Made by a program: the position numbers and the translations under genes. The notes under the pieces were generated by a model. The model was not told the origin of the DNA, did not search any database, and saw nothing but the letters and a program-made list of their open reading frames with translations. Positions 46,492-60,010 of a stretch of 64,000 bases of DNA are shown piece by piece. The stretch covers positions 310,001 through 374,000 of the forward strand of contig NZ_JABEKT010000002.1 in NCBI RefSeq assembly GCF_013283195.1, in the 5' to 3' direction. This stretch comes from Ensifer adhaerens (GTDB lineage: Bacteria > Pseudomonadota > Alphaproteobacteria > Rhizobiales > Rhizobiaceae). How positions within the stretch are numbered: the first letter of the stretch is position 1; each line of letters begins with the position of its first letter.

Positions 46492-47610
46492 CTAGCGCGC
46501 GACCGCTTCGACGATCCTGCGGCTGGCCGAAACGATGTCCGTATCCTGCAGCAATGCGCCGCCGATCAGATACATCACATCGTTTCCGTAAGCGTCGCGC
46601 ATCTCCGGCACGCGGCCGAGGTTCATGCCGCCGCCGGGGGCAGGCACGATCGCCTTCGGGCCACCCATGTCGGTGGCGCAGGCCTTGGCGATCGACTGGC
46701 ATTCCTCGCGGGTGAAGCCAAAGCGCCCGCCGAAATTCGGATAGATCGCTGCGTCGGCCCCCATCAGGCGCTGCAAGGCGCCGTAGAAGCATCTGTGCGA
46801 AAAGCCAGTATCGGGCGAAACGACGTTGGCACCTGAGAACGCAGGATGCGAAACGATCGGCAGAGTGAAGGCCGGATCGGAGGCTAGCGTGTGGATCACA
46901 TCGTAGCCGGCAAGGGCCGGGGAAATCATCACCCCACCGGCGCCGGCCTCCTGCGCCATCATCGCGCGCTCGAACAGGTCTTTTGCCGACGCGGTGATGT
47001 TCGGCACGAAACTCGCCCGCCCGCCGCTCTTGGCATTGGCTTCGCCGACGGCATTGACGCAGGCGGCCAGCCGTTCGGCGAAGGGCGACGTCCGCTGGTC
47101 CACCAGCCCGTGGTCGTCCTTGACGAAATGCATGCCGCCGAGCGCGAAATCATGCGCGCGGCGGGCAAGCTCGGCCGAAGACAGGCCGACCGGCTTGATC
47201 GCCGACATCAACAGCGGCTGCGCGCCGATGCCGGCCCTTTGCCGCAAGCCGGCAATTCCATGCTTCGGGCCGGGGCAAAGCGCAAGGATGCCCGCGGACA
47301 GGCCGATGTTCTCGACCTTCAGGCCCGGCTTGATCGAGCTGTTGCCGAAGACAATGTTGAGGAACTGCAGGAAGTCGCCGCCGACATCGTCCTCGCTGTA
47401 GGAGATCTCGGCGAGATAGCCGGGCCGACCGTCCGGATCTTTTGCCAGCGCCTCGAGCTTGCCGAGGATTTCGTCCTCGACATAGCCTTTGGGCACGACA
47501 TCCCGAGGGATTTCGACCGTTTGTTCCAGGGCGATATCAAGCGCCCGCGTTCGCGCCTCCGCCTCGTCGGCCGCCCTGATGTAGTAGCTGACGGTGAACC
47601 GCGGAGCCAT
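46492..47610 (-). CDS. RuBisCO-like protein (form IV)
   Basis: 372 residues of the RuBisCO large-chain superfamily, shorter than true RuBisCO. K139 in SAIKPVGLS corresponds to the first active-site lysine. K164-D165-D166 in HFVKDDHG corresponds to the carbamylated lysine and aspartate, but the following metal glutamate is H167. H255 (SHPAFSGA) keeps the histidine and loses the arginine, and the C-terminal phosphate loop is APGGGMNLG. CO2 fixation is therefore not expected. RLPs enolise or isomerise sugar phosphates such as methylthioribulose-1-phosphate. It is last in mtnK-mtnA-tkt-tkt-RLP, starting on the stop of the preceding gene (TGATG), so its substrate should derive from 5-methylthioribose or a 5-deoxypentose. 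Confidence 0.9.
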   Translation of the reverse strand: MAPRFTVSYYIRAADEAEARTRALDIALEQTVEIPRDVVPKGYVEDEILGKLEALAKDPDGRPGYLAEISYSEDDVGGDFLQFLNIVFGNSSIKPGLKVENIGLSAGILALCPGPKHGIAGLRQRAGIGAQPLLMSAIKPVGLSSAELARRAHDFALGGMHFVKDDHGLVDQRTSPFAERLAACVNAVGEANAKSGGRASFVPNITASAKDLFERAMMAQEAGAGGVMISPALAGYDVIHTLASDPAFTLPIVSHPAFSGANVVSPDTGFSHRCFYGALQRLMGADAAIYPNFGGRFGFTREECQSIAKACATDMGGPKAIVPAPGGGMNLGRVPEMRDAYGNDVMYLIGGALLQDTDIVSASRRIVEAVAR

Positions 47611-48611
47611 CAGAGCGCCTCCGCCTTCTGCGCAGAGTGGACGTGATCGAGGCGAACCTCGGTCAGTTCATCTTCGCCGATTTCGAGCGACCTGCCGGTC
47701 AGCTCCTCGATCGCGGCCACCAGCGCGCCGGCGTCGAGGCCATACTTCTTCATGAGGTAAGGCTTCGAGGCGCCATGCGCAAACGTGTCCTTCAGGCCGA
47801 GACGCTTGAGGCGAACGCCAAGGCCCTCTTCGGCCACGATCTCGGCAACAATCGACCCGAGGCCGCCGACGATCGTGTGGTTTTCGAGCGTGACGATGCC
47901 CTTCTTGCCGCGCGCGGCCTTGAGCAGCCCTTCGCGGTCAAACGGCTTTAGCGTCGAGGCGTGCAGGTGATGAAGCCCGATGCCGCGCGCCTCGATCGGT
48001 TTTGTGGCGCGCAAGGCTTCCTCGGTGCAGACGCCGGAGCTGACGACGAGGATGTCGTCGCCTTCCGACAGGGTACGCAGCGTGTTGAACGCAAACGGCG
48101 TTGAGAAAAGCCGAGGGACTTCGCCGCGAAGGATGCGCACATAAACCGGTCCGTCGATCGCATCGGCAACCTCGAGTACCGTTTCGACCTCGGTCGCATC
48201 GCCGGTTTCCAGGATCGTCATGTTCGGCACGGCGCGCAGCACGGCGATGTCCTCGATCGCCTGGTGGGTGATGCCGCCGGGCGTGGTGATGCCAGGCAGG
48301 AAGCCCATCAGCCGCACCTTGCGGTTGGAATAGGCGATCGAATTGATCAGCTGGTCATAGGGGCGCCGGTAGAGGAACACCGAGAAGGTGTGGATGAAGG
48401 GCCGATAGCCCTGCATGGCAAGCCCGCCGGCAAAGGAGAGCATGTTCTGCTCGGCCATGCCCAACGACAGGAACTGCTCCGGGTGCCGGTCGCGGAAACC
48501 ATCGACCTCACAAGAAGAAGTGAGGTCGGCGGAGAGGCAAAGCACATCCGGGCGTGCTGTCGCGAAAGCCTCGAATGCCTTCGCGTAAGGGCGATTGACG
48601 ATTTCGACCAT
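47610..48611 (-). CDS. transketolase-like protein, C-terminal subunit
   Basis: 333 residues covering the pyrimidine-binding and C-terminal domains of a ThDP enzyme. The cofactor-activating glutamate is in SLGMAEQNMLSFAGGLAMQG (read in parts), followed by the GGITHQAIEDIAVLRAVPN loop and a C-terminal domain with VTLENHTIVGGLG. It must pair with the next gene upstream, as in other split transketolases (for example the apulose-4-phosphate type). The start is two bases after that gene's stop. Context points to a 2-carbon transfer or cleavage on a sugar phosphate made by MtnK, MtnA and the RLP. Confidence 0.9.
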   Translation of the reverse strand: MVEIVNRPYAKAFEAFATARPDVLCLSADLTSSCEVDGFRDRHPEQFLSLGMAEQNMLSFAGGLAMQGYRPFIHTFSVFLYRRPYDQLINSIAYSNRKVRLMGFLPGITTPGGITHQAIEDIAVLRAVPNMTILETGDATEVETVLEVADAIDGPVYVRILRGEVPRLFSTPFAFNTLRTLSEGDDILVVSSGVCTEEALRATKPIEARGIGLHHLHASTLKPFDREGLLKAARGKKGIVTLENHTIVGGLGSIVAEIVAEEGLGVRLKRLGLKDTFAHGASKPYLMKKYGLDAGALVAAIEELTGRSLEIGEDELTEVRLDHVHSAQKAEAL

Positions 48612-48613
48612 GG

Positions 48614-49549
48614 TCAGGCCCCTTCCATTTCGTTCGGGCTGACGCCCAGTTCGGCGGCGAGTGCCGCCTGCATCTCGAGCCGCTCTTCGGCGCTCTTGAA
48701 GCGCACGTAGTGAAGGCGCGGGAAGCGCTTCTTGAGGAAGTTCATTCCCTGGAACGGCGACGTGTTGGCGAGAATGACCAGCGGCTTGCCCGGCTCGGCG
48801 CTGTCCGCAGCGTTGCGCATGGCCTGAAGGTCGTGGCCGTCGATCGAGCGGCAGGTGGCGCCGAAGGCTGCAACGCGGCTGGCAAGATCGCCGAGATCGA
48901 GAACCGACGACATGGCACCATCGCATTGCTGACGGTTGACGTCGACGATGACGCGGATGTTGTCGATGCCATGGTGGGCCATTGCCGCCAGGCACTCCCA
49001 GGTCTGGCCCTCCTGAAATTCCCCGTCGGACATGTAGACCCAGACCTTGCCCGGCTCGTTGCGCCTCTTGCGAGCAAAGGCAACGCCCGCAGCCATGGAA
49101 AGGCCCTGCGCCAGCGAGCCTGTCGTGACTTCCATGCCCGGGCTGTGCTCGGCGCCGATCATCTCGACGGAGCTTCCGTCCTTGTTGAAATGGTCGAGCG
49201 CATGCTCATCCATGCGCCCGACCTCGATCAGCGCGCAGTAGATCACCAGCGCATAATGCGCCGGCGAGATGATGAAGCGATCATATTCCGGGGCCGACGG
49301 GCCGTGGTAGCCGGCGCCGGTAAAGGCGTCGGGGTTATCGGCGGAGGGCACGCCGCGAAACGGCAGCGGCACCTTCGGCAGGGTCGGTTCGCCGAGCTTG
49401 AGGAACTCGTTATAGAGCAGAGCGAGGCTTTCGGCGGCCGAGCAGGCCTGGCTCAGATAGCCGCCATTGTTCTTCATCGTGTGGAAGAAGACGCGGCGGC
49501 GAATGCCGAGTGCGATCTCCTCGGTGGTCTTCTGGTTTGTCAGGCTCAC
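48614..49549 (-). CDS. transketolase-like protein, N-terminal (ThDP-binding) subunit
   Basis: 311 residues. The diphosphate-binding motif reads VYMSDGEFQEGQTWE ... VDVNRQQCDG, so GDG is SDG with the Mg-binding asparagine kept. SPAHYALVIYCALIEVG and the EHSPGMEVTTGSLAQGLSMA loop are typical of transketolase. GTG start behind AAGGAG, three bases after the mtnA stop. It forms the holoenzyme with the C-terminal subunit. Confidence 0.92.
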   Translation of the reverse strand: MSLTNQKTTEEIALGIRRRVFFHTMKNNGGYLSQACSAAESLALLYNEFLKLGEPTLPKVPLPFRGVPSADNPDAFTGAGYHGPSAPEYDRFIISPAHYALVIYCALIEVGRMDEHALDHFNKDGSSVEMIGAEHSPGMEVTTGSLAQGLSMAAGVAFARKRRNEPGKVWVYMSDGEFQEGQTWECLAAMAHHGIDNIRVIVDVNRQQCDGAMSSVLDLGDLASRVAAFGATCRSIDGHDLQAMRNAADSAEPGKPLVILANTSPFQGMNFLKKRFPRLHYVRFKSAEERLEMQAALAAELGVSPNEMEGA

Positions 49550-49552
49550 CGG

Positions 49553-50647
49553 TCAGCTCCTTTCCGGAAACAGCGCTTTGAGGCCCTGCGGCGACGCCGT
49601 GGCGACGCCGCGTTCGGTGATGAGGCCGGTGATGAGGCGCGCAGGCGTCACGTCGAAGGCCGGGTTTGCCGAGGGGCTGCCTTCGGGTGAGACGCGCACC
49701 GAGATGATCGCGCCATCGGGGCCACGCCCTTGCACGAAGCTTACCTCGTCGCCGGTGCGTTCCTCGATCGGGATCTCCTTGACGCCGTCCTTGACCGTCC
49801 AGTCGATGGTTGGCGACGGGAGCGCGACATAGAAGGGAACATCGTTGTCGCTGGCGGCGAGCGCCTTCAGGTAGGTGCCGATCTTGTTGCAGACATCGCC
49901 GTTGGCCGTCGTGCGGTCGGTGCCGACGATCACCATGTCGACGGCGCCGTGCTGCATCAGGTGGCCGCCGGCATTGTCGACGATCAGCGTGTGCGGCACG
50001 CCATGGCCGTTGAGCTCCCAGGCGGTCAGCTGAGCGCCCTGGTTGCGCGGCCGGGTTTCGTCCACATAGACATGCACGGGAATACCCGCTTCGGTCGCCA
50101 TATAGATCGGTGCCGTCGCCGTTCCATAGTCGACGGTCGCAAGCCACCCGGCGTTGCAATGGGTCAGGATGTTGACCGGCTCGCCGGGCTTCTTCGTCGC
50201 CGCGATCTCGCGGATGATCTTGAGGCCGTTCGCCCCGATCGCCCGGTTGAGCTGCACGTCCTCCTCGGCGATTTCGCCGGCGCGCCGGTAGGCGGCCTCG
50301 GCGCGGTCGTCGACCGACAGCGGCCGCAGGAACTGGCGCATGGCCTCGAGCGCCCAGCGAAGGTTGATCGCGGTCGGTCGGGTCTCGTTGAGCTCCTCCC
50401 AGACCGCATCGAGATGCCGGTCGGACGGGTCGTGCGCCATGGCAATCGCGACTCCGTAGGCGGCGGTGACGCCGATCAGCGGCGCGCCGCGCACCCACAT
50501 GTCGCGGATGGCGACCGCCACGTCTGCGACTGTCTTCAGCGTGACGATCCGGAATTCGTGCGGCAGCCAGCGCTGGTCGATGATGTCGACCGAGCGGCCG
50601 TCGGCGTTGAGCCAGATCGTATGGTAGTGCTTTTCTCCGACTTTCAC
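49553..50647 (-). CDS. mtnA: S-methyl-5-thioribose-1-phosphate isomerase
   Basis: 364 residues of the IF-2B-related MtnA family. The catalytic cysteine is in [13 protein letters not shown] and the aspartate in [39 protein letters not shown] is the substrate loop. It converts methylthioribose-1-phosphate to methylthioribulose-1-phosphate (5-deoxyribose-1-phosphate is also accepted by some). GTG start overlapping the mtnK stop, with AGGAGA upstream; the longer frame is only the antisense of mtnK's end. Confidence 0.95.
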
Positions 50648-51915
50648 GAAAGTGTCTCCTGCTGAAGCCGTTGCGCGGTGGCGCGAATGTCCCTGAGGCT
50701 CGCAATGCGATCCCGGTTGACGGCGAGATGACGACCGAGCTTCAGTGCCTTGCTTTCGCATTCGGCGCGGCGGTTGAGGTCGTCGATGGTTTCGAAATCG
50801 GCATTGTGGGCAAGGCCGAGGATGCGTCTGAGGATCTCGACGCCGGCAAAGCCGAGCATCTCGCGGTAGATCTCATCGAGAACGATGGTCAGCGCCTGTT
50901 CCGAGCCGAACGGATCGTCGCGGTCTTCGAAAAGGCTTGCCTGGTAGAGGATGCCCTTGCGCTCGCTCCGCCACAGAGCCGAAAACTCGTCGCAGAAGGT
51001 TTCCCAGATCGTCTCCGTGGTATCCAGCAGGTAGGTGCGCATCCGGTCGCGTTCGCCGGCGACGGTCTCGTGGCCTTCCTGCGAGAAGTAGCTCATCCAG
51101 AAATTCGCAAGCAGCATACCGACATCGAAGCTGATCGGGCCGTAGAAGGCGAATTCCGGGTCGATGACACGCGTCTCGTCGTCGGTGACCATGACCGAAC
51201 CGGTGTGCAGGTCGCCGTGGCATAGGGTTTCGGCCTTGGCGGAGAAGATGTGTTTCAGCCGCTGGGCTTCCACCTTCAGGTCACGGTCGCGGCGCAGTTC
51301 CTCGACCAGGCTGTCGAGGTGCGGGCTCGTGTGCCGGTTCATCTCCGCTTCGAAGTAAGGATCGGAGAAAACAAGGTTTTCGGTGATGTCGCAGAGTTCG
51401 ACATTATCGGCGAAGAGGGCGAGATCGGCCTTCTTGTCGCGTGTCGGCATCGAAAGATCCGAGCCGCGGAAAAGCGTGCGGGCCGCGAAAAGCCCGAGAT
51501 CGCGGCCGATCTTCGGCAACATGCGCCCCGCAATCAGAGCGCGCCGCAGGATCACGTGCGGTGTCAGGTATTCCATGATGATCATCGCCTGCTCGGCGTC
51601 GAAGAACAGGATTTCCGGCACCATGCCCGGATCGCGGGCAGCCTGGCGAATGAGGGCGTGGTATTCGAAGAACGAGCGCTTCAAGGGCAGGGGCCAGCGT
51701 TCGCCGACAAGCCGGACATAGGGGAGCGCCTGCTTGACGATCGCAGCCCCCTTCTCGCCCGTGACGATGAAGACGAGGTTGAGGTTGCCATCGCCGACCT
51801 CCTTGACCTGCCAGCGAAGATGGTCCGCGCCGATCCTGTCGCAAAGGGCCGTGTTATCGCTCAGTCTCAATGGCAGCGTTTCGGCGCTGAGCGCCTCGAA
51901 CACGTGCTTGTCCAT
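50644..51915 (-). CDS. mtnK: S-methyl-5-thioribose kinase
   Basis: 423 residues of the aminoglycoside-phosphotransferase-like MtnK family: [14 protein letters not shown] (nucleotide loop), [37 protein letters not shown], the catalytic loop [12 protein letters not shown] and metal site [17 protein letters not shown]. It phosphorylates 5-methylthioribose at C1. ATG ending 51915 follows GGGAGGACCAT. It is the first gene of the leftward operon, divergent from the ABC transporter across a perfect inverted repeat. Confidence 0.95.
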
Positions 51916-51994
51916 ATGGTCCTCCCTATCGACATGACCGGCCTTCACCGCTCCTCGTCATGCTGTCTTGGGTCATAGGTAAGTCGCCATTCTG

Positions 51995-52021
51995 TCAAAT
52001 GTCAACAGCCTTGACATTTGA
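51995..52021. promoter_or_regulatory. SorC operator: perfect 11-bp inverted repeat
   Basis: TCAAATGTCAA - CAGCC - TTGACATTTGA lies in the 145-base gap between divergent mtnK and the ABC ATPase. Similar TGACAT and GTCAAAT elements occur before the SorC gene at 56840-56873. One regulator thus can control uptake and catabolism together. Confidence 0.7.
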
Positions 52022-52060
52022 TGGATAGCCATCCTAACCTGCCTTCATTGGGAGGAGAGC

Positions 52061-53584
52061 ATGAGCGAACAAGCAGTGTTTCGCATCGAGGGCGTGCGCA
52101 AATCCTTCGGGCCGATACCGGTCCTGAAGGGCGTCGATCTCGAATTGCGCAAGGGTGCCGTCACGGTGCTGATGGGCGCCAACGGCGCTGGAAAGTCGAC
52201 ACTGGTGCGCATCCTCAGTGGCGTCTACGTCAGCGATGCCGGGGATATGCGGCTCAGCGATATTCCATTTGCCCCGGCAACGCCGGCCGAGGCGATCCGG
52301 GCCGGCGTGGTGACGGTTCACCAGAACATCAATGACGGCGTCGTCGCCGATCTCGATGTGGCGACCAATCTCACGCTCGACCGGCTGAACGGTCGCGGTG
52401 CACGCCTGTTTTTCAACCCGCGCCGTGTCCGGCGTGAGGCAGCCGTCGTTGCGGCCCGCATGGGCCTCGCGATCGATCTTTCCGCCGATATCAACGACCT
52501 GACGCTTGCCGACCGACAGATGGTGGCGATTGCCCGCGCCATGGCGCATGAACCGCAGGTGCTGATCCTCGACGAGCCGACCTCGTCGCTGTCGAGTGCC
52601 GAGGCCGATCGGCTGTTCGAGCTTCTCGACCGGCTAAAAGCCCGCGGCGTCGCCATCCTCTATATTTCCCACCGGATGTCCGACATCCGCAGGCTCGCCG
52701 ACAGCATCGTCACGCTGCGCGACGGGCGCATAACCGGCCGTTTCGAAGGGGCGGATCTGGATTACGAAGGCGCTGTCAACGCAATGCTCGGGCAAAAGGT
52801 TTCGGCAGGTGCCGTGACCGTGCGCGACGGTTCCGGTGCAGTCTTTTCGGTGAAGAGCCTGCGGCTGACGCAGACGTCCCGTCCGTTCGACCTGGCGCTT
52901 GGCGATGGCGAAATCGTCGCCGTGACCGGGCTTGTCGGTGTCGGCAAGACGGCGCTGGCCGAGACGCTTTTCGGCGCGCGTTCGCCCGTGGCAGGGCTGA
53001 TGACGCTTGACGGCGCGGCCTACCATCCACAATCGACCGGTCAGGCGATTGCCAAGGGCGTGTTTCTGGTCGCCAAGGATCGGGCCGACAGCGGCATCGT
53101 TCCGGACTTCAATATCTACGAGAACATCAGCCTGCCGTTCCTTAAGCGGCTGTCGCGTTTCGGCATATCGAGCAGGTCGGCCGAACGGGCGAAATCGCGG
53201 GCGCAGATCGCGGCACTTGGCGTCGTCTGCCGCAGCGAGCGCGACGAGATGCAGACCCTTTCCGGCGGCAATCAGCAGAAGGTGATGGTCGGGCGCTGGC
53301 TCTCCGAGCCTTCGCGCCTGCTGATCCTCGACGAGCCCTTCCAGGGCGTCGACATTGCCGCGCGCCGCGACATCGGCGCCAAGCTGCGCGCCTCGGCCTC
53401 GGGCCGCGCCACCATCGTTTTCCTGACCGAACTCGACGAAGCCTTCGAGATCGCCGACCGCATTCTCGTGATGTCGGAACACACTGTAGTCGGCGAGCAT
53501 CGCAACGCCTCGGTCGACGTCGAGCGGCTCCTCCAGGAGATCGCCGGTCAACATCATCAGCAGGGACAGCCTCATGAGCAGTGA
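52061..53584 (+). CDS. sugar ABC transporter ATPase, two-domain CUT2 type
   Basis: 507 residues with two nucleotide-binding domains. The first has Walker A LMGANGAGKST, signature-like LTLADRQMVAIARAM in place of LSGGQ, and Walker B VLILDEPTSSL. The second has the usual degenerate Walker A (GLVGVGKTALAE), signature LSGGNQQK and LLILDEPFQGVD. Unlike the ATPase at 29 kb it needs no homodimer. It overlaps the permease by 11 bases. It belongs to the importer for the mtn operon's substrate. Confidence 0.93.
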   Translation: MSEQAVFRIEGVRKSFGPIPVLKGVDLELRKGAVTVLMGANGAGKSTLVRILSGVYVSDAGDMRLSDIPFAPATPAEAIRAGVVTVHQNINDGVVADLDVATNLTLDRLNGRGARLFFNPRRVRREAAVVAARMGLAIDLSADINDLTLADRQMVAIARAMAHEPQVLILDEPTSSLSSAEADRLFELLDRLKARGVAILYISHRMSDIRRLADSIVTLRDGRITGRFEGADLDYEGAVNAMLGQKVSAGAVTVRDGSGAVFSVKSLRLTQTSRPFDLALGDGEIVAVTGLVGVGKTALAETLFGARSPVAGLMTLDGAAYHPQSTGQAIAKGVFLVAKDRADSGIVPDFNIYENISLPFLKRLSRFGISSRSAERAKSRAQIAALGVVCRSERDEMQTLSGGNQQKVMVGRWLSEPSRLLILDEPFQGVDIAARRDIGAKLRASASGRATIVFLTELDEAFEIADRILVMSEHTVVGEHRNASVDVERLLQEIAGQHHQQGQPHEQ

Positions 53585-54641
53585 ACAGATAAAACCCACG
53601 GCGCCTGCCGCTTCAGTGCTACCGGCTTCGCCGGCAAGTGCCGCGTTCAGCCTGCGCGACCTCGCGATCAAGTACGGCTTCCTTGTTCTGCTGGCGGGGC
53701 TGGTCATCTATTTCTCGCTGGTGACCAACGGCTTTTCCTCGCCGCAGAGCGCGGTCTTCATCCTGCAATCCGTATCGATCACCGGTATCCTGGCGCTCGG
53801 CGTCACGGCCACGCTCGTCGTCGGCGGTTTCGACCTGTCGATCGGCTCGGTCGCGACCACGTCGATGATGGCGTCATCCTATGTGATGGTGGTGATGGGC
53901 GGCGACGCGCTGACGGCGACACTCGTCTGCCTGGCGATCGGCGTTCTCGTCGGCCTGATCAACGGCATCATCATCGTCTATATGCGCGTGCCGGATCTTC
54001 TGGCGACGCTCGGCATGATGTTCCTGCTGCTCGGCCTGCAGCGCATCCCGACCGAGGGGCGCTCGATCGCCGCCGGCATGACGCTTCCCGACGGCTCTGT
54101 TGCGACAGGCACGTTCAGCCCGGCCTTCCTGGCGCTCGGGCGCCATCGCTTCGATCTGATCCTGCCGAACCTCGTGCCGGTCTCGGTGGTGGTGCTGATC
54201 GTGCTGGCCGTCGTGATCTGGTTCTTCCTCGAATACACCCGCTTCGGGCGGATGATGTATGCGGTCGGCTCCAACGAGCGCGCCGCCGGGCTGGCGGGCG
54301 CCCCGGTCAATGCCTACAAGATCTCGGCCTATGTCATTTCGGGAGTCTTCGCCTCGATCGGCGGCATTCTGCTCGCCGCCCGTCTCGGCCGCGGCGACAT
54401 CGCCTCGGGCAACAACCTGTTGCTCGACGCGGTCGCAGCCGCCCTGATCGGCTTTGCCGTGCTCGGAGCTGCCAAGCCGAATGCGTTCGGTACGGCGATC
54501 GGCGCGCTCTTTGTCGGCATCCTGCTCCAGGGCCTGACGATGATGAATGCGCCTTACTACACCCAGGACTTCATCAAGGGCGCCGTTCTCGTCATCGCCC
54601 TGATCTTCACCTTTGCGCTCTCGAAAAGAGGCAAACGCTGA
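53574..54641 (+). CDS. sugar ABC transporter permease, RbsC family
   Basis: 355 residues with about ten membrane segments. Family segments are GVTATLVVGGFDLSIGSVAT, NGIIIVYMRVPDLLATLGMM, YTRFGRMMYAVGSNERAAG (ATPase contact) and LLLDAVAAALIGFAVLGAAKPN (read in parts). It overlaps the ATPase end and is followed 52 bases later by the binding protein. It is part of the predicted methylthioribose/5-deoxypentose importer. Confidence 0.93.
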   Translation: MSSEQIKPTAPAASVLPASPASAAFSLRDLAIKYGFLVLLAGLVIYFSLVTNGFSSPQSAVFILQSVSITGILALGVTATLVVGGFDLSIGSVATTSMMASSYVMVVMGGDALTATLVCLAIGVLVGLINGIIIVYMRVPDLLATLGMMFLLLGLQRIPTEGRSIAAGMTLPDGSVATGTFSPAFLALGRHRFDLILPNLVPVSVVVLIVLAVVIWFFLEYTRFGRMMYAVGSNERAAGLAGAPVNAYKISAYVISGVFASIGGILLAARLGRGDIASGNNLLLDAVAAALIGFAVLGAAKPNAFGTAIGALFVGILLQGLTMMNAPYYTQDFIKGAVLVIALIFTFALSKRGKR

Positions 54642-54693
54642 CGGGAAAGCCCCGGAGGCGGAAAACAAACGTTCACCAGTGGAGGAGACTGAA

Positions 54694-55737
54694 ATGAACT
54701 TTACACGCAGAGCAATGGGCAAGCTGGCGCTTGGCCTTGCAGGAACCGTGGCCTTCGCCACCGCTTCCTTTGCCGCCGACATGCCGAAGCCCTTCGACAA
54801 GCCAGGCGACGTCAAGATCGCGCTCGTGCGCTATCTGTCGACCGGCGACTTCTTCCAGTCCTACCTTGCCGGCGTGGAGGCGCAGGCAAAGGCACTCGGC
54901 GTCCAGCTTCAGGTTCTCGACAGCCGCCAGGACGCAGCGCTTCAGGCCGACATGGTCGACCAGGCGATCGCGCTCGGCGTGCAGGGGATCATCATCCAGC
55001 ACGGCCTGACGGAATCGATGAAGGAAGCCGCCCAGCGCGCCGTCGATGCCGGCATCAAGGTCGTCGCTTTCGACGTCAACGTCGAGAACGAGAAGATCCC
55101 GCAGGTCGAACAGTCCGACCGAGACCTTGCCCGCCTTGCCCTAGAGCAGGCGATCAAGGACAACGGCGACAGCTTCAAGGCCGGCTACGTCTATGTCGCT
55201 GGCATCGCGCCGCTCGACCGCCGCGACGAGACCTGGAAGGAATTCAAGGCGAAGTATTCGGGTATCAACGAGATCTCGCAGTTCGGCACGATGGACAACC
55301 CGATCGCCAACTCGGTTGCCAACCAGGCGCGCTCGGTCATCTCCGCCAACCCTGATATCACCGTGATGTTTGCGCCCTATGACGAGTTCGCCAAGGGCGT
55401 GAAGATCGCGGTCGACGAAGCCGGTCTGTCGCAGAGCGTGAAGATCTATTCCGCCGACATCTCGACCTCGGATATCGCCGCGATGCGCGAGCCGGATTCC
55501 GCCTGGGCGGCAACGGCCGCCACCAACCCGGCCGTGGTCGGACAGGTTTCGGTCAGAACGCTTGCCATGCTGCTTGCCGGCGAGGATCCGGGCCGTAGCG
55601 TCATTGTGCCTCCGACGCTGATCACCCAGAAGGACCTGAACGATCAGGACATCAAGAACATGGAAGAACTCGGCACCAAGCTGCCGCAGTTCGCTCATGC
55701 GGATGTTGCCATGCCGGCATGGATGCCGAAGCCCTGA
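54694..55737 (+). CDS. sugar ABC transporter substrate-binding protein
   Basis: 347 residues: signal peptide (MNFTRRAMGKLALGLAGTVA, cut near SFAAD; RRA at the start resembles a Tat motif) and a ribose-binding-type fold with LVRYLSTGDFFQSYLAG, QGIIIQHGLTESM, VVAFDVNVEN and YSADISTSD around the ligand. GGAGGAG precedes ATG 54694. It should bind the compound fed to MtnK, probably 5-methylthioribose; the ligand pocket is aromatic and could accommodate the methylthio group, but this is inference. Confidence 0.9.
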   Translation: MNFTRRAMGKLALGLAGTVAFATASFAADMPKPFDKPGDVKIALVRYLSTGDFFQSYLAGVEAQAKALGVQLQVLDSRQDAALQADMVDQAIALGVQGIIIQHGLTESMKEAAQRAVDAGIKVVAFDVNVENEKIPQVEQSDRDLARLALEQAIKDNGDSFKAGYVYVAGIAPLDRRDETWKEFKAKYSGINEISQFGTMDNPIANSVANQARSVISANPDITVMFAPYDEFAKGVKIAVDEAGLSQSVKIYSADISTSDIAAMREPDSAWAATAATNPAVVGQVSVRTLAMLLAGEDPGRSVIVPPTLITQKDLNDQDIKNMEELGTKLPQFAHADVAMPAWMPKP

Positions 55738-55758
55738 TCCGTACTGTCAATTTGAAAG

Positions 55759-55790
55759 AAAGCGGGGCGGTCGAAAGGCTGCCCCGTTTG
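55759..55790 (+). terminator. intrinsic terminator of the ABC operon
   Basis: CGGGGC (55763) pairs with GCCCCG (55781), preceded by an A-rich stretch and followed by TTTGC. It lies 25 bases after the binding-protein stop and before the convergent SorC gene. Confidence 0.6.
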
Positions 55791-55833
55791 CATGTTGCCG
55801 ACCTTGCGCGTCGGGCCGTGTTCCAAGAGCGAC

Positions 55834-56814
55834 CTAGGCGGTTGCTGCTTGGACCCGGCCGAGGCCGTCGCGCCGCCAGCGGTCGATCACTCGGCGCGCC
55901 ATCGATGTGGTAACGACGAGATGCGAGGCGAAGCCGCCCTTCAGCGCGGCCATCAACGGCTCGAACTTGCTGTCTTCCTGGACGACCAGCATGCGCTTCT
56001 CGATGGCGCGGATCGATCCGAGATCGGCGGAGATGCAGCGTCGATTGTGGGCGCAGTTCACCCATTGGCCGTCACCGTCGATCAGCTGCCCGGCGATGAC
56101 GCCGACGGCCCCTTCTTCGCCCATGCGGTGCATTTCATCGGCGCTGAGCGCGCCGCATTTGACGAGATGGCTGTCGTCTTCGATGCCGCCGACGGAATAG
56201 AGCGCCAGATGGCAGTCGGCGATCGTCGACAGCTGCTCGCGGATCACCGGTTCGCCGCGAAGCTCCTCGGCCAGCCGTTCGGATGACAGGACCAGCGGCG
56301 CGTAGAAATTGATGCCTTCGGCATTGAGCCGGCGCGCGATCTCCGTCGTGCACTGATCAGGCCGATAGGAATAGGGCGCTCCGAGGTTGCCGCAGAGCTG
56401 CACCACCGTGACGCCGCGCAGATCGGCGAAAGGCATCACGTCGGCGATGTGGTAAACCGTGCGTCCCCAGGCGACGCCGACGCGGTCGCCCTTGTTGATC
56501 AGCTCGAGGAAGACGGATGCGGCCAGCACCGGCATCTCCGCCGTCGGGTCCATGGCCTGTCGATCCTCCGGCACGATCCAGGCGGTCGTCACGCCGGTTG
56601 CGTCCTCCAGTTCGCGCGCCAGCACATCGTCGGTAAAAAGCTCCGTCGATGTGCTGATATTGACGATACCGGTCTCGCGTGCCCGCCTGAGATAGGTGGC
56701 AACAGAGGCACGTGATATGCCCAGTTTCTGCGCGACTTCATCCTGCCGTAGCCCATGGCTGTAGTAGAGCCATGCGGCCTTGTGCATGATCTGGTCGGTG
56801 TTGCGGATAGGCAT
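55834..56814 (-). CDS. SorC/DeoR-type sugar-binding transcriptional regulator
   Basis: 326 residues: N-terminal helix-turn-helix (RQDEVAQKLGISRASVATYL, about 23-42) and the SorC sugar-phosphate-binding domain with GDRVGVAWGRTVYHIAD, VVQLCGNLG, LYSVGGIEDDS and GVIAGQLIDGDG. Such regulators respond to phosphorylated sugars, here perhaps methylthioribose-1-phosphate or methylthioribulose-1-phosphate. It is convergent with the ABC operon and is the likely reader of the TCAAATGTCAA repeat. Confidence 0.9.
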   Translation of the reverse strand: MPIRNTDQIMHKAAWLYYSHGLRQDEVAQKLGISRASVATYLRRARETGIVNISTSTELFTDDVLARELEDATGVTTAWIVPEDRQAMDPTAEMPVLAASVFLELINKGDRVGVAWGRTVYHIADVMPFADLRGVTVVQLCGNLGAPYSYRPDQCTTEIARRLNAEGINFYAPLVLSSERLAEELRGEPVIREQLSTIADCHLALYSVGGIEDDSHLVKCGALSADEMHRMGEEGAVGVIAGQLIDGDGQWVNCAHNRRCISADLGSIRAIEKRMLVVQEDSKFEPLMAALKGGFASHLVVTTSMARRVIDRWRRDGLGRVQAATA

Positions 56815-57704: not shown

Positions 57705-58093
57705 GCGCTGGCCTCGGTATTGCGGTCCACCTGTTGTGCGCCTGCGAGGATGACAGCGCCGGTGCGTGCGGCTTCGGCAATGTCTTCGAACAGCAATTGC
57801 GCTTCGGCCAGCAGGCTGCCATCCACCTCCTCATCGTCAACTTCATCGAGTTCGCAAAGCAGTTCCGCGATGGCGGCAATGCGCCGGCGTTGATACCTGG
57901 CGCGGTCCAGCCGGCGGCGCCGGTACCGGCCGGCGGCCAACCGCTCGAACTGGAGGAGCAACTGATCGATTTCCGCCCGGCAGGCGCAATCGAGAGTCGC
58001 GCCTGCAATCAGACGACGGATACCGGCGACGATGTCAGCGGGATCGGCATCGTCAGTCGGCTCGCGAACTGGAAGGGTCAACGCATCTGCCAT
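57701..58093 (-). CDS. hypothetical protein downstream of ubiV (130 aa)
   Basis: 130 residues, all-helical and acidic, with an arginine cluster (RYRRRRLDRARYQRRR, ~57-72) and two cysteines near CACR. It starts 16 bases inside the ubiV end, so it is in the same transcript. I recognise no family. Its place suggests an accessory of anaerobic ubiquinone formation or denitrification. Confidence 0.6.
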   Translation of the reverse strand: MADALTLPVREPTDDADPADIVAGIRRLIAGATLDCACRAEIDQLLLQFERLAAGRYRRRRLDRARYQRRRIAAIAELLCELDEVDDEEVDGSLLAEAQLLFEDIAEAARTGAVILAGAQQVDRNTEASA

Positions 58094-59028
58094 CTTTCAC
58101 CTCCATGGCGCGCGCCGGCAGGTGCTTCGATCCACGATGCGCCGGTCTGGCCATAGTGAAACCCGTTTGACAACGGCACGCCGGGATAGGCGGCCACCAG
58201 ACGCGCAAGGCCTTCGGCCGCAGACATCAGCCCGGCGGCGACGGATTCATAGATGCGGGCGACCGTCACCATGTCGCAGTCCTGCGGCGATAGCCGGATC
58301 CGGCTGATGCCGGCGGCAGTCAGTGCCGGAAGTTCCTGCAACAGGCTTTGGCATGTGTGGGACATGGTCTGGACCCCGTTGAGGACGAGGAACGGCTGGC
58401 GATCAAGCGTCTCGACAATGAGCCCATCGCTGTCGTCGCCGCAGATGAACTGGCAATTGTCCTTCACCAGGCCCTTGGAACGGGCGTGAGCGCAACGCGC
58501 CGAGATTGCCAACGGCACGCGGCCAAAGCCGAAGATTTCGAACGCGACGTCAGGCGCATCACGAACGATCTCGCTGACCGACGCCATCGGCAACTCCGGT
58601 GGCAGGCAAATGCTGGTCGCGCCGCGCGACGCCAGCAAGCGGGCGGTGGCTCCATTATAGACATTGATCAGAGGGCCGATCGAATGCGGTTTGCCGGCAA
58701 GCAACCCGAGCGCAGACAGATCATTGGCCTCGATCGGGTGGATGCTGTCGCGCACCAGGCCGCGCACGAGTTGGCTCTCGCGCTCCAGGGTGACGAGTGC
58801 CAGCGAAGCAAGGCTGACTTTCTTGCCGGCGGCCTCCAGGCGTTCGATGACTTCGGCGACATGCGGCTCGATGAAATGCAGGCGCTTGGAGCAGACCGCT
58901 TCACCGAGGGTGACGTGGTCGACCGGGGCTTCGTCGGCAATGCGGAAATAGAAGTCACGCCACTTGGGTCCGTCCCAAAGGTAAAGCAAGGGTCCGAGAC
59001 TGAGCGAGAGGTGGGGTGTAGCAGGCAT
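58078..59028 (-). CDS. ubiV: UbiV, oxygen-independent ubiquinone hydroxylation protein
   Basis: 316 residues of the U32 (collagenase-like) family. With UbiU it carries [4Fe-4S] clusters and hydroxylates the ubiquinone ring without O2. The four cluster cysteines match E. coli UbiV in spacing: one in LGEAVCSKRL, then SARC-x12-C-x3-C (RSKGLVKDNCQFIC region). ATG ending 59028 follows GGAGATAACGAC; the longer frame is antisense to ubiU's end. It follows ubiU by four bases. Confidence 0.92.
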   Translation of the reverse strand: MPATPHLSLSLGPLLYLWDGPKWRDFYFRIADEAPVDHVTLGEAVCSKRLHFIEPHVAEVIERLEAAGKKVSLASLALVTLERESQLVRGLVRDSIHPIEANDLSALGLLAGKPHSIGPLINVYNGATARLLASRGATSICLPPELPMASVSEIVRDAPDVAFEIFGFGRVPLAISARCAHARSKGLVKDNCQFICGDDSDGLIVETLDRQPFLVLNGVQTMSHTCQSLLQELPALTAAGISRIRLSPQDCDMVTVARIYESVAAGLMSAAEGLARLVAAYPGVPLSNGFHYGQTGASWIEAPAGARHGGERWQMR

Positions 59029-59032
59029 GTCG

Positions 59033-60010
59033 TTATCTCCACCGCTTTTCATAGGCGCCCGACGTCGTCTTCTGTCCTTCGCTGAGCCGCCTGAGGCGCG
59101 ACAGCAAGGCGGGTCTCTCAGTTGCATCGGCAGCGACAGCGCGGCGCATGACGGAAACGACCTCGGCGACATAGGCCTTGCCGCGCTGGCGCCCCTCGAT
59201 CTTCAGTGCTCCGACGCCGGCATCGCGCAAGGCATCGATATGGTCCATGACGTCGAGCGAAACCGGATCCTCGAAGGCATATCCCCGCTCCTCGGCTATG
59301 TCGAAACGGCCCTTGCAGAGCGTGGGGTAACCGGCGGCCTCGCCGGCGGGAAACCGATTGATCGTGTAGTCACCGAGTTCCGACACGAGTTCGCTACCGT
59401 CCTCGCGGTAGCGCACATGGCTTGCCGGCGAGCAGACGCCGTTCATGTTGGGCGATTTGCCGGTGGCGTAGGATGACAGCGAGCAGCGTCCCTCCGCCAT
59501 CACGCAAAGCCCGCCGAAAACGAAGACCTCGATTTCGCAGCTGATCTGGCGCGCAAGGCGGGCGATATCGGGAATGGTGAGGATGCGCGGAAGCACGACA
59601 CGCTTCGCACCGAAGGTTTCGACCAGGAATTTGACCGCATCGGCATTGGAGGCGGACGCCTGCACCGAGACGTGCAGCCGTTGCTGCGGATGGCGCTCGG
59701 CGGTGTAGGCCATCAGGCCGAAGTCGGCGAGGATCAGGGCATCGGCGCCAAGGCGCACGGCATCATCGACGGCGTCATGCCAGAGCTTTTCCTGTCCAGC
59801 GCGCATGAAGGTGTTGATGGCGACGAAGGTCATCACCTTGTGTCGGCGGGCATAGGCAATCGCCGTCTTCAGCTCGTCGCGGGAAAAATTCAGGCCGGGA
59901 AAGTTGCGGGCATTGGTCTCGTCGCGAAAGCCGCAATAGACGGCATCGGCGCCGGCATCCACGGCCTCGCGAAAGGCGGCCGGCGTGCCTGCCGGACAGA
60001 TCAGTTCCAT
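59033..60010 (-). CDS. ubiU: UbiU, oxygen-independent ubiquinone hydroxylation protein
   Basis: 325 residues of the U32 family, beginning MELICPAGTPAAFREAVDAG. Cysteines in FGGLCVMAEGRCSLSSY, GVCSPASH and TLCKGRF reproduce the C-x6-C-x16-C...C spacing of the E. coli iron-sulfur site. It forms a heterodimer with UbiV. The start overlaps the ubiT end by ten bases, so the three genes are coupled. Confidence 0.94.
   Translation of the reverse strand: MELICPAGTPAAFREAVDAGADAVYCGFRDETNARNFPGLNFSRDELKTAIAYARRHKVMTFVAINTFMRAGQEKLWHDAVDDAVRLGADALILADFGLMAYTAERHPQQRLHVSVQASASNADAVKFLVETFGAKRVVLPRILTIPDIARLARQISCEIEVFVFGGLCVMAEGRCSLSSYATGKSPNMNGVCSPASHVRYREDGSELVSELGDYTINRFPAGEAAGYPTLCKGRFDIAEERGYAFEDPVSLDVMDHIDALRDAGVGALKIEGRQRGKAYVAEVVSVMRRAVAADATERPALLSRLRRLSEGQKTTSGAYEKRWR

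Follow-up and report, generated by a model that had tools for sequence, protein, structure and literature searches.

A candidate 5-methylthioribose catabolic island in Ensifer adhaerens that joins a RuBisCO-like protein to a split transketolase

Which enzymes would take over 5-methylthioribulose-1-phosphate when neither a cupin nor an aldolase lies beside the genes that would make it? This question is raised by a gene island in a 64,000-nucleotide stretch of the Ensifer adhaerens genome (the window; contig NZ_JABEKT010000002.1, positions 310,001 to 374,000). Here, genes for a 5-methylthioribose kinase (mtnK), a 5-methylthioribose-1-phosphate isomerase (mtnA), the two subunits of a split transketolase (tktN and tktC) and a RuBisCO-like protein (RLP) lie together with a sugar ABC importer and a SorC-type regulator. 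The best-supported reading is a self-contained island for 5-methylthioribose (MTR), with the transketolase probably acting after the RLP, on its product.

That the transketolase takes the RLP product is what we infer from gene context. Its gene is found where other RLP loci have the cupin gene, and it co-occurs with mtnA and the RLP gene, which supports this placement in the pathway. The original prediction had proposed the same order of steps. The placement gained support from the binding protein, the RLP type and the transketolase context, while the transketolase chemistry and the fate of the methylthio-C2 unit are as conjectural as before.

Proposed pathway

In the predicted pathway, the ABC importer would bring in external MTR, MtnK would convert it to MTR-1-phosphate and MtnA would isomerise this to 5-methylthioribulose-1-phosphate. 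The RLP would then move the carbonyl in a 1,3-isomerisation, giving 1-methylthio-D-xylulose-5-phosphate, that is, D-xylulose-5-phosphate with SCH3 for the C1 hydroxyl. Judging from context, the split transketolase would replace the cupin methylsulfurylase of the Rhodospirillum rubrum isoprenoid shunt and cleave the C2-C3 bond, yielding glyceraldehyde-3-phosphate and a 2-methylthio-hydroxyethylidene bound to thiamine diphosphate (ThDP). The bound unit could expel methanethiol to form acetyl-ThDP and from it acetyl phosphate or acetate, could be transferred to an aldose phosphate, or could be released as methylthioacetaldehyde.

The first of these fates would make the split transketolase a methylthio-phosphoketolase, a tentative proposal that we regard as possible and well short of probable. 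MTR would then yield glyceraldehyde-3-phosphate, either acetyl phosphate or acetate, and free methanethiol, which could go into methionine. The RLP would be a plug-in for routes that pass through a 1-phosphate, and loci with an FGGY kinase would feed the enzyme directly. Comparable to the expulsion of methanethiol are the loss of water in phosphoketolase and that of sulfite in sulfoacetaldehyde acetyltransferase. Possible sinks for methanethiol in the genome are two O-acetylhomoserine (OAH) sulfhydrylases above cut-off and one gene of the methanethiol-oxidase family.

We filed the island as a new variant of the catabolism of methylthioribose and 5'-methylthioadenosine (MTA). It is not a member of the isoprenoid shunt or of the dihydroxyacetone phosphate (DHAP) shunt, since each of these has one defining enzyme that is absent from the island. 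No paper joining RLP, methylthioribose and transketolase was found in the open PMC literature. If the reading is true, the sulphur sugar left from S-adenosylmethionine chemistry would have a further outlet, to central carbon, beyond the recycling of methionine. The RuBisCO-like protein would have a new metabolic partner, a ThDP enzyme working on a C1-thioether ketose would be suggested, and methanethiol release by soil and marine alphaproteobacteria would be predicted. The modular swaps described below, with a cupin or a transketolase following the RLP and with either MtnK, MtnA and RLP or an FGGY kinase feeding the transketolase, make these substrate assignments directly testable.

RuBisCO-like protein and its partner enzymes

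Homology indicates that the island RLP resembles the 5-methylthioribulose-1-phosphate 1,3-isomerases. Among solved chains, both its sequence and its fold come closest to 3qfw, an RLP of Rhodopseudomonas palustris that we do not equate with RLP1 of that species. According to passages of PMC5893883, RLP1 is a proven 1,3-isomerase that turns 5-methylthioribulose-1-phosphate into 1-methylthioxylulose-5-phosphate and 1-methylthioribulose-5-phosphate (3:1), and its gene adjoins that of the cupin consuming its product. The two MtnW models gave the island RLP 198 and 155 bits (cut-offs 409 and 514) and the OiaX model 65 bits (cut-off 700). The OiaX score rules out an apionate-type RLP (OiaC/OiaX), the identity that the original prediction had named as its contrary; the nearest relatives are RLPs of the isomerase type.

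Genome censuses with the island RLP found matches in 51 of 297 genomes of the order (E <= 1e-20) and 17 of 385 of the class (E <= 1e-40), own genome counted in each, and in 6 of 398 of the phylum. We inspected the best matches, namely 30 loci from the order and 16 new ones from the class (46 together), with 4 new ones from the phylum. Among the 43 census RLPs of at least 190 bits, own included, a cupin is adjacent in 24, a split transketolase in 16, neither in 3 (L016, L028 and L078) and both in none. The phylum census adds three transketolase-linked RLPs and one cupin-linked RLP from another class. Since none of the RLPs of this type that were seen has both a cupin and a transketolase beside it, we take these enzymes as alternative partners for one product. 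The two are unrelated, and appear to be alternative next steps after seemingly one isomerase. The RLP alone was rejected as a marker of the island, because the same search also returns cupin-linked RLPs.

The motif columns examined are alike in both kinds of RLP. H167 is kept in 64/65 and R296 in 65/65 transketolase-linked rows, both are kept in 25/25 cupin-linked rows, and both are missing from three unrelated RLPs (L001, L032, L065). K139, K164 and D166 are kept in all transketolase- and cupin-linked rows, yet also in unrelated RLPs, and are therefore general. One fixed difference was seen, with G326 in all 65 transketolase-linked rows versus A in all 25 cupin-linked rows.

A tree of 97 RLPs has a supported branch (100/97) with all 25 cupin-linked rows and two others on one side of it and the 65 transketolase-linked rows on the other. 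The tree is midpoint-rooted, has some long branches and is no test of single origin. Before it was built, 28 rows were dropped as duplicates of longer loci or as truncated or broken, including L037.

A second, unrelated RLP is found on the same contig (G000:C12:35307-36143; L001). It is 24% identical to the island RLP, with E at the place of H167 and K at that of R296. Two other loci have an RLP and neither transketolase nor cupin. In L057 an RLP of the island type lies beside an Rbs-type importer and an enolase-superfamily enzyme, which is another possible use of such proteins; in L064 the RLP is accompanied by a kinase resembling MtnK (40%) and by a protein weakly resembling glycerol-1-phosphate dehydrogenase.

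Gene neighbourhoods of the split transketolase

A profile scan of genome contigs with the tktC alignment confirmed at least 443 relatives. The counts given here cover the best 80 loci (L090-L169), four of which (L134, L137, L153, L168) are also in earlier locus sets, with gene presence counted by tblastn. Of the 80, 31 contain the whole set of mtnK, mtnA, tktN, tktC, RLP, a SorC gene and the genes for the three importer components, in varying order. This recurrence rules out a chance assembly of neighbouring genes, and it is the co-occurrence of the five families that the original prediction had proposed to look for.

The presence of mtnA (37 of 80 loci) always goes with an RLP gene directly behind tktC (37/37). 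Leaving out L113, L114 and L135, which have less than 900 nt after tktC, 77 loci can be compared, and those without mtnA have an adjacent RLP in 6 of 40 cases. Fisher's test of mtnA versus RLP gives p 8e-16 and ignores relatedness; a contrast based on the tktC tree is fairer. On the tktC tree, the two contexts (mtnA with RLP versus reductase) interleave. For the 77 loci, supported branches yield 9 independent mtnA contrasts; on average, RLP changes in step with mtnA in 6.8 of them, in the opposite direction in 0 and not at all in 2.1 (sign test, median p 0.016).

The reductase context accounts for 31 of the 80 loci; these have an S/N-oxide reductase of the BisC family and lack both mtnA and an adjacent RLP. 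For L113 the sequence ends too early to tell, and L156 has an RLP 3.7 kb away. An FGGY kinase, labelled as such by means other than family scans throughout the 80 loci, is present in 28 of the 30 reductase loci with enough sequence, and an epimerase-like gene in 18 of the 31. Two annotated plasmids with this context, of Paracoccus seriniphilus (L170) and Marinovum algicola (L171), have in addition a SorC gene and genes for a zinc dehydrogenase and a 4-epimerase similar to AraD. In L170 the kinase has xylulokinase as its nearest family (XylB 290 bits; cut-off 380), and the gene set is another possible route to a xylulose-5-phosphate analogue.

The same transketolase appears to be fed either by MtnA and RLP or by an FGGY-kinase route. 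In our reading both routes converge on a xylulose-5-phosphate analogue altered at C1, and the sulfoxide-type reductase family suggests a thioether as this alteration.

As for the rest of the 80, six loci have neither set, L125 and L126 have RLP only, and L138, L159 and L162 have RLP with the reductase. Locus L142 begins inside mtnK and contains an RLP. In six of the 37 loci with mtnA a purine nucleoside phosphorylase takes the place of mtnK, beside mtnA, tktN, tktC and RLP, and five of these have an amidohydrolase.

Several loci merit a separate record. Nucleoside versions of the island, in which purine nucleoside phosphorylase accompanies mtnA, tktN, tktC and RLP (L038, L090, L119, L143, L147, L158 and L161, with an amidohydrolase in all but L143), perhaps serve MTA catabolism; the amidohydrolase of Ponticoccus (L038) resembles MTA/5'-deoxyadenosine deaminases, at scores below their cut-offs. 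The L090 contig is filed under Enemella (Actinomycetota), and its purine nucleoside phosphorylase, amidohydrolase, mtnA and reductase share 95-97% identity with their counterparts in Ponticoccus, an alphaproteobacterium, so that contamination or misbinning is likely. The RLP-less reductase/transketolase clusters are mostly from Rhodobacterales and perhaps form a pathway for a methylsulfinyl sugar or polyol. A plasmid of Vibrio nigripulchritudo (L039) has tktN-tktC-RLP with an FGGY kinase and no mtnA in the 21 kb of sequence available, and its RLP is the most divergent transketolase-linked one seen (33% identical). Lastly, in Rhizobium sp. RCAM05350 (L037) each of the five island genes is matched in two pieces in different frames, by decay or sequencing error.

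Active site of the split transketolase

Among solved structures, both subunits are nearest to the split transketolase of Carboxydothermus (6yaj/6yak). They have the split-type architecture, with a ThDP-binding N subunit and the pyrimidine-binding and C-terminal domains on a second chain. The tktN family, aligned in 92 rows (89 distinct), carries the signature GGYLSQAC / VEMIGAEHSPG. We refer to its donor-site histidines by what we take to be the human numbering (H37, H77, H110 and H258). The first active-site histidine (H37) is replaced by Y in 91/91 readable rows. At the aligned place of the GHP histidine (H110) there is I in 92/92, with an invariant histidine four residues further. The H77 place is kept in 92/92 rows, as is a histidine that aligns in both outgroups and that we took as H258. 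Presumably one of the replaced histidines contacts the C1 hydroxyl of the donor. The replacements seem compatible with a C1-modified donor and are no proof of it.

The Carboxydothermus enzyme differs in this respect, as it retains the histidines of SGHPG and GHP, both absent from the RLP-linked family. Split transketolases of unusual sugar pathways are AptAB, which acts on apulose-4-phosphate, and SqwGH of the sulfoquinovose pathway. They resemble the island enzyme in being two-subunit transketolases dedicated to a non-standard sugar phosphate, and differ in that the predicted donor here has a substituent at C1 instead of a hydroxyl and that the partner is an RLP.

Importer specificity

The importer is predicted to carry MTR, as indicated by homology. 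Its binding protein has 4ry8 as the best match among solved chains (phmmer, 222 bits, E 1.1e-64). An AlphaFold2 model of the protein, made from 19 sequences (pLDDT 86.9), also has 4ry8 as the top Foldseek entry (E 2.5e-33, TM 0.83/0.90, 36% identity), followed by an unassigned sugar-binding protein of Yersinia (E 1.7e-27) and then by ribose-binding proteins (E about 1e-19). The title of 4ry8 is '5-methylthioribose transporter solute binding protein TLET_1677'. A binding protein that ignores methylthio-pentoses, which would have spoken against the original prediction, therefore finds no favour at the level of homology.

This result bears on the alternative that 5-deoxyribose, or both sugars, would be the main substrate. 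MtnK and MtnA would then give 5-deoxyribulose-1-phosphate, the RLP 1-deoxyxylulose-5-phosphate, and the transketolase glyceraldehyde-3-phosphate and an acetaldehyde unit. Passages of PMC12632272 describe MtnK and MtnA of the Escherichia coli DHAP shunt as accepting both 5-deoxyribose and MTR, and the class II aldolase found in 24 of 32 sister islands (see below) recalls 5-deoxyribose salvage as described in part of PMC6079011. Against it stand the title of the closest binding protein and the S/N-oxide reductases that recur beside the same transketolase. We also know of no RLP activity on a deoxy substrate, and count this against the alternative, which we consider rather unlikely on balance. 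As a substrate taken in addition to MTR, 5-deoxyribose is possible.

Comparison with known salvage routes

The MTA-isoprenoid shunt of R. rubrum and R. palustris shares with the island MtnA, an RLP of the DeepYkr type and a predicted common intermediate, 1-methylthioxylulose-5-phosphate. Its cupin methylsulfurylase makes 1-deoxyxylulose-5-phosphate (DXP), whereas the island has the split transketolase in that place. Its entry is by MTA phosphorylase; that of the island would be by importer and MtnK, in a layout organised as a regulated sugar-type catabolic island. No cupin of the shunt is present in the island, and a search of the genome gives a single weak match of 56 residues (E 3e-4), which rules out an isoprenoid shunt completed by a distant cupin.

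Universal methionine salvage (MtnB, C/W and D) has its first two enzymes in common with the island. The genome differs from it in that MtnD (ARD) has no PF03079 match and MtnB has 8 weak matches, the best at 60.5 bits versus a cut-off of 137; in addition, the island RLP is not MtnW. This route is ruled out for the genome on the lack of MtnD and of any MtnB above cut-off, MtnC and MtnX not being searched for. The original prediction had claimed the absence of MtnB, MtnD and the cupin; the searches of the entire genome gave no MtnD, no MtnB above cut-off and no convincing shunt cupin.

Furthermore, the genome has one purine nucleoside phosphorylase above cut-off, with an MTAP score far below cut-off. 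It has three PF01048 genes, two of them without a family naming, so an MTA phosphorylase or nucleosidase is possible.

The DHAP shunt and 5-deoxyribose salvage (MtnK, MtnA and Ald2 or DrdA, in E. coli and Bacillus thuringiensis) share with the island the trunk of MtnK and MtnA, the use of external 5-substituted riboses and a DeoR-family regulator. The likeness extends to a class II aldolase in most sister islands. The island itself differs in having no aldolase, with RLP and transketolase instead. Of the 32 mtnK-bearing loci, 18 encode an aldolase fused to a short-chain dehydrogenase in one bifunctional protein and 6 encode a class II aldolase on its own, similar to FucA; the available sequence of the other 8 shows neither. 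In the relatives the bifunctional gene sits between the binding protein and SorC genes, where the island has 96 nt, and neither this island nor its Ensifer canadensis relative has an aldolase gene among or next to its genes. The predicted absence of an Ald2-type aldolase accordingly stands for this island and fails as a general feature. In 14 loci, of which 12 belong to the 32, a mutarotase of the RbsD/FucU type is encoded next to the importer. The stand-alone aldolases (6 loci) and mutarotases (14 loci) were grouped and named by blast, and family libraries were applied to 3 of the former and 2 of the latter.

Most sister islands combine a DHAP-shunt-like outlet with the RLP-transketolase outlet, and this island and that of E. 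canadensis show only the latter. As RLP and transketolase are present in 32/32 and the aldolase in 24/32, the comparison suggests that RLP and transketolase can suffice.

An aldolase elsewhere in the genome might still be the real outlet for methylthioribulose-1-phosphate, with RLP and transketolase as accessories. The frequency of the aldolase in sister islands favours this, as do the class II aldolases of the genome: the best homologue of the sister aldolase/short-chain dehydrogenase is 51% identical and on another contig, and an aldolase-only match of 45% is on the island contig outside the window. The eight sister islands without aldolase in the available sequence, together with this island and that of E. 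canadensis, argue the other way, as does the RLP present in all 32, and we consider such an outlet unlikely.

Points against the pathway and remaining alternatives

Several observations weigh against the pathway through RLP and transketolase. The aldolase of the 24 sister islands could drain methylthioribulose-1-phosphate by itself, and a transketolase naturally wants a C1 hydroxyl on its donor. The invariant histidine four residues on might replace the missing GHP histidine. A split transketolase of Variovorax (L172), with no RLP annotated within 10 kb, shares both histidine replacements, which makes them less convincing as a mark specific to C1-thioether donors. An RLP is also present in six loci in which no mtnA was seen (L125, L126, L138, L142, L159 and L162), three of them with a reductase. 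BisC-family members reduce N-oxides as well. Finally, the ligand of 4ry8 is taken from the entry title alone, and no paper on '4RY8' was found in the open PMC literature.

Instead of taking the RLP product as donor, the transketolase might accept a C2 unit onto a 5-substituted pentose or act on ordinary pentose phosphates from other sources. A promiscuous transketolase moves a C2 unit to 5-deoxyribose, giving 7-deoxysedoheptulose, in the portion of PMC8102628 that deals with it, and the nearest solved split enzyme (6yaj/6yak) is named plainly as a transketolase. Such a role would leave unexplained why, among the RLPs seen, either a cupin or a transketolase lies alongside and never both, and why the RLP comes and goes with mtnA across the transketolase tree. 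We judge it improbable, and prefer the RLP product as the donor.

Another reaction of the RLP, as the enolase of universal salvage or as a decarboxylase/oxygenase of branched-sugar pathways, is very unlikely: RLPs are functionally diverse and the MtnW models do reach 155-198 bits, but the MtnW and OiaX scores are far below cut-off, MtnD and an MtnB above cut-off are absent from the genome, and the closest agreement in motif positions and fold is with RLPs of the isomerase type.

Organization and regulation of the island

The island lies on a contig of 1.46 Mb (C12), in an assembly of 7.07 Mb in 20 contigs that is 99.95% complete. Its features are listed in Table 1, and its genes lie at the coordinates that the original prediction had given. 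The five catabolic genes are all intact and form the single tight operon that had been predicted, with overlaps of 4 nt (mtnK/mtnA) and 1 nt (tktC/RLP) and gaps of 3 and 2 nt at the remaining two junctions. The predicted sugar importer proved complete, of the RbsABC type and divergent from the operon across a 145-nt intergenic region, and the SorC gene ends the block. An alternative upstream TTG start of the binding protein is at 54613. Family scans used frames with upstream starts, longer by 11 (mtnK), 38 (mtnA) and 8 (tktC) codons. The mtnA gene is the only one found in the genome, and the RLP is 93% identical to that on plasmid pT173e of E. canadensis.

Table 1. Features of the island, with positions in the window
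Feature	Position	Strand	Evidence
RLP, 5-methylthioribulose-1-phosphate 1,3-isomerase type, 372 aa	46492-47610	-	PF00016 81.6 bits (cut-off 30.1); best sequence and fold match 3qfw
tktC, C-terminal subunit of split transketolase, 333 aa	47610-48611	-	PF02779 and PF02780; best solved relative 6yaj
tktN, ThDP-binding N-terminal subunit of split transketolase, 311 aa	48614-49549	-	PF00456; best solved relative the N chain of Carboxydothermus 6yak
mtnA, 5-methylthioribose-1-phosphate isomerase, 364 aa, GTG start	49553-50647	-	TIGR00512 442 bits (cut-off 279)
mtnK, 5-methylthioribose kinase, 423 aa	50644-51915	-	TIGR01767 484 bits (cut-off 275); best solved relatives 2pyw and methylthioribose kinase 2olc
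Perfect 11-bp inverted repeat, 5-nt spacer, in the gap separating mtnK from the importer; putative operator for the regulator	51995-52021		
Sugar ABC importer ATPase, RbsA/AraG type	52061-53584	+	PF00005, two stretches
Sugar ABC importer permease, RbsC type	53574-54641	+	PF02653
Periplasmic binding protein, predicted methylthioribose-binding	54694-55737	+	phmmer and Foldseek 4ry8
SorC/DeoR-type sugar-responsive regulator	55834-56814	-	PF04198 167.5 bits

The inverted repeat is found at the same place in 11/11 close relatives (L033-L037, L041-L045, L189), with 0-1 mismatches in the arms and varying letters in the spacer. Several other islands have looser versions ahead of mtnK or tktN, and several RLP-less loci have them ahead of tktN. 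Weak matches occur elsewhere too, and some islands (L048, L169) have none. Its outer half-site, CAAAT/ATTTG, is similar, with a different spacing, to the semi-palindrome that passages of PMC12632272 propose for MtnR at the E. coli DHAP-shunt promoter.

Just past the SorC gene, at 58078-60010 of the window, are ubiV and ubiU of anaerobic ubiquinone synthesis.

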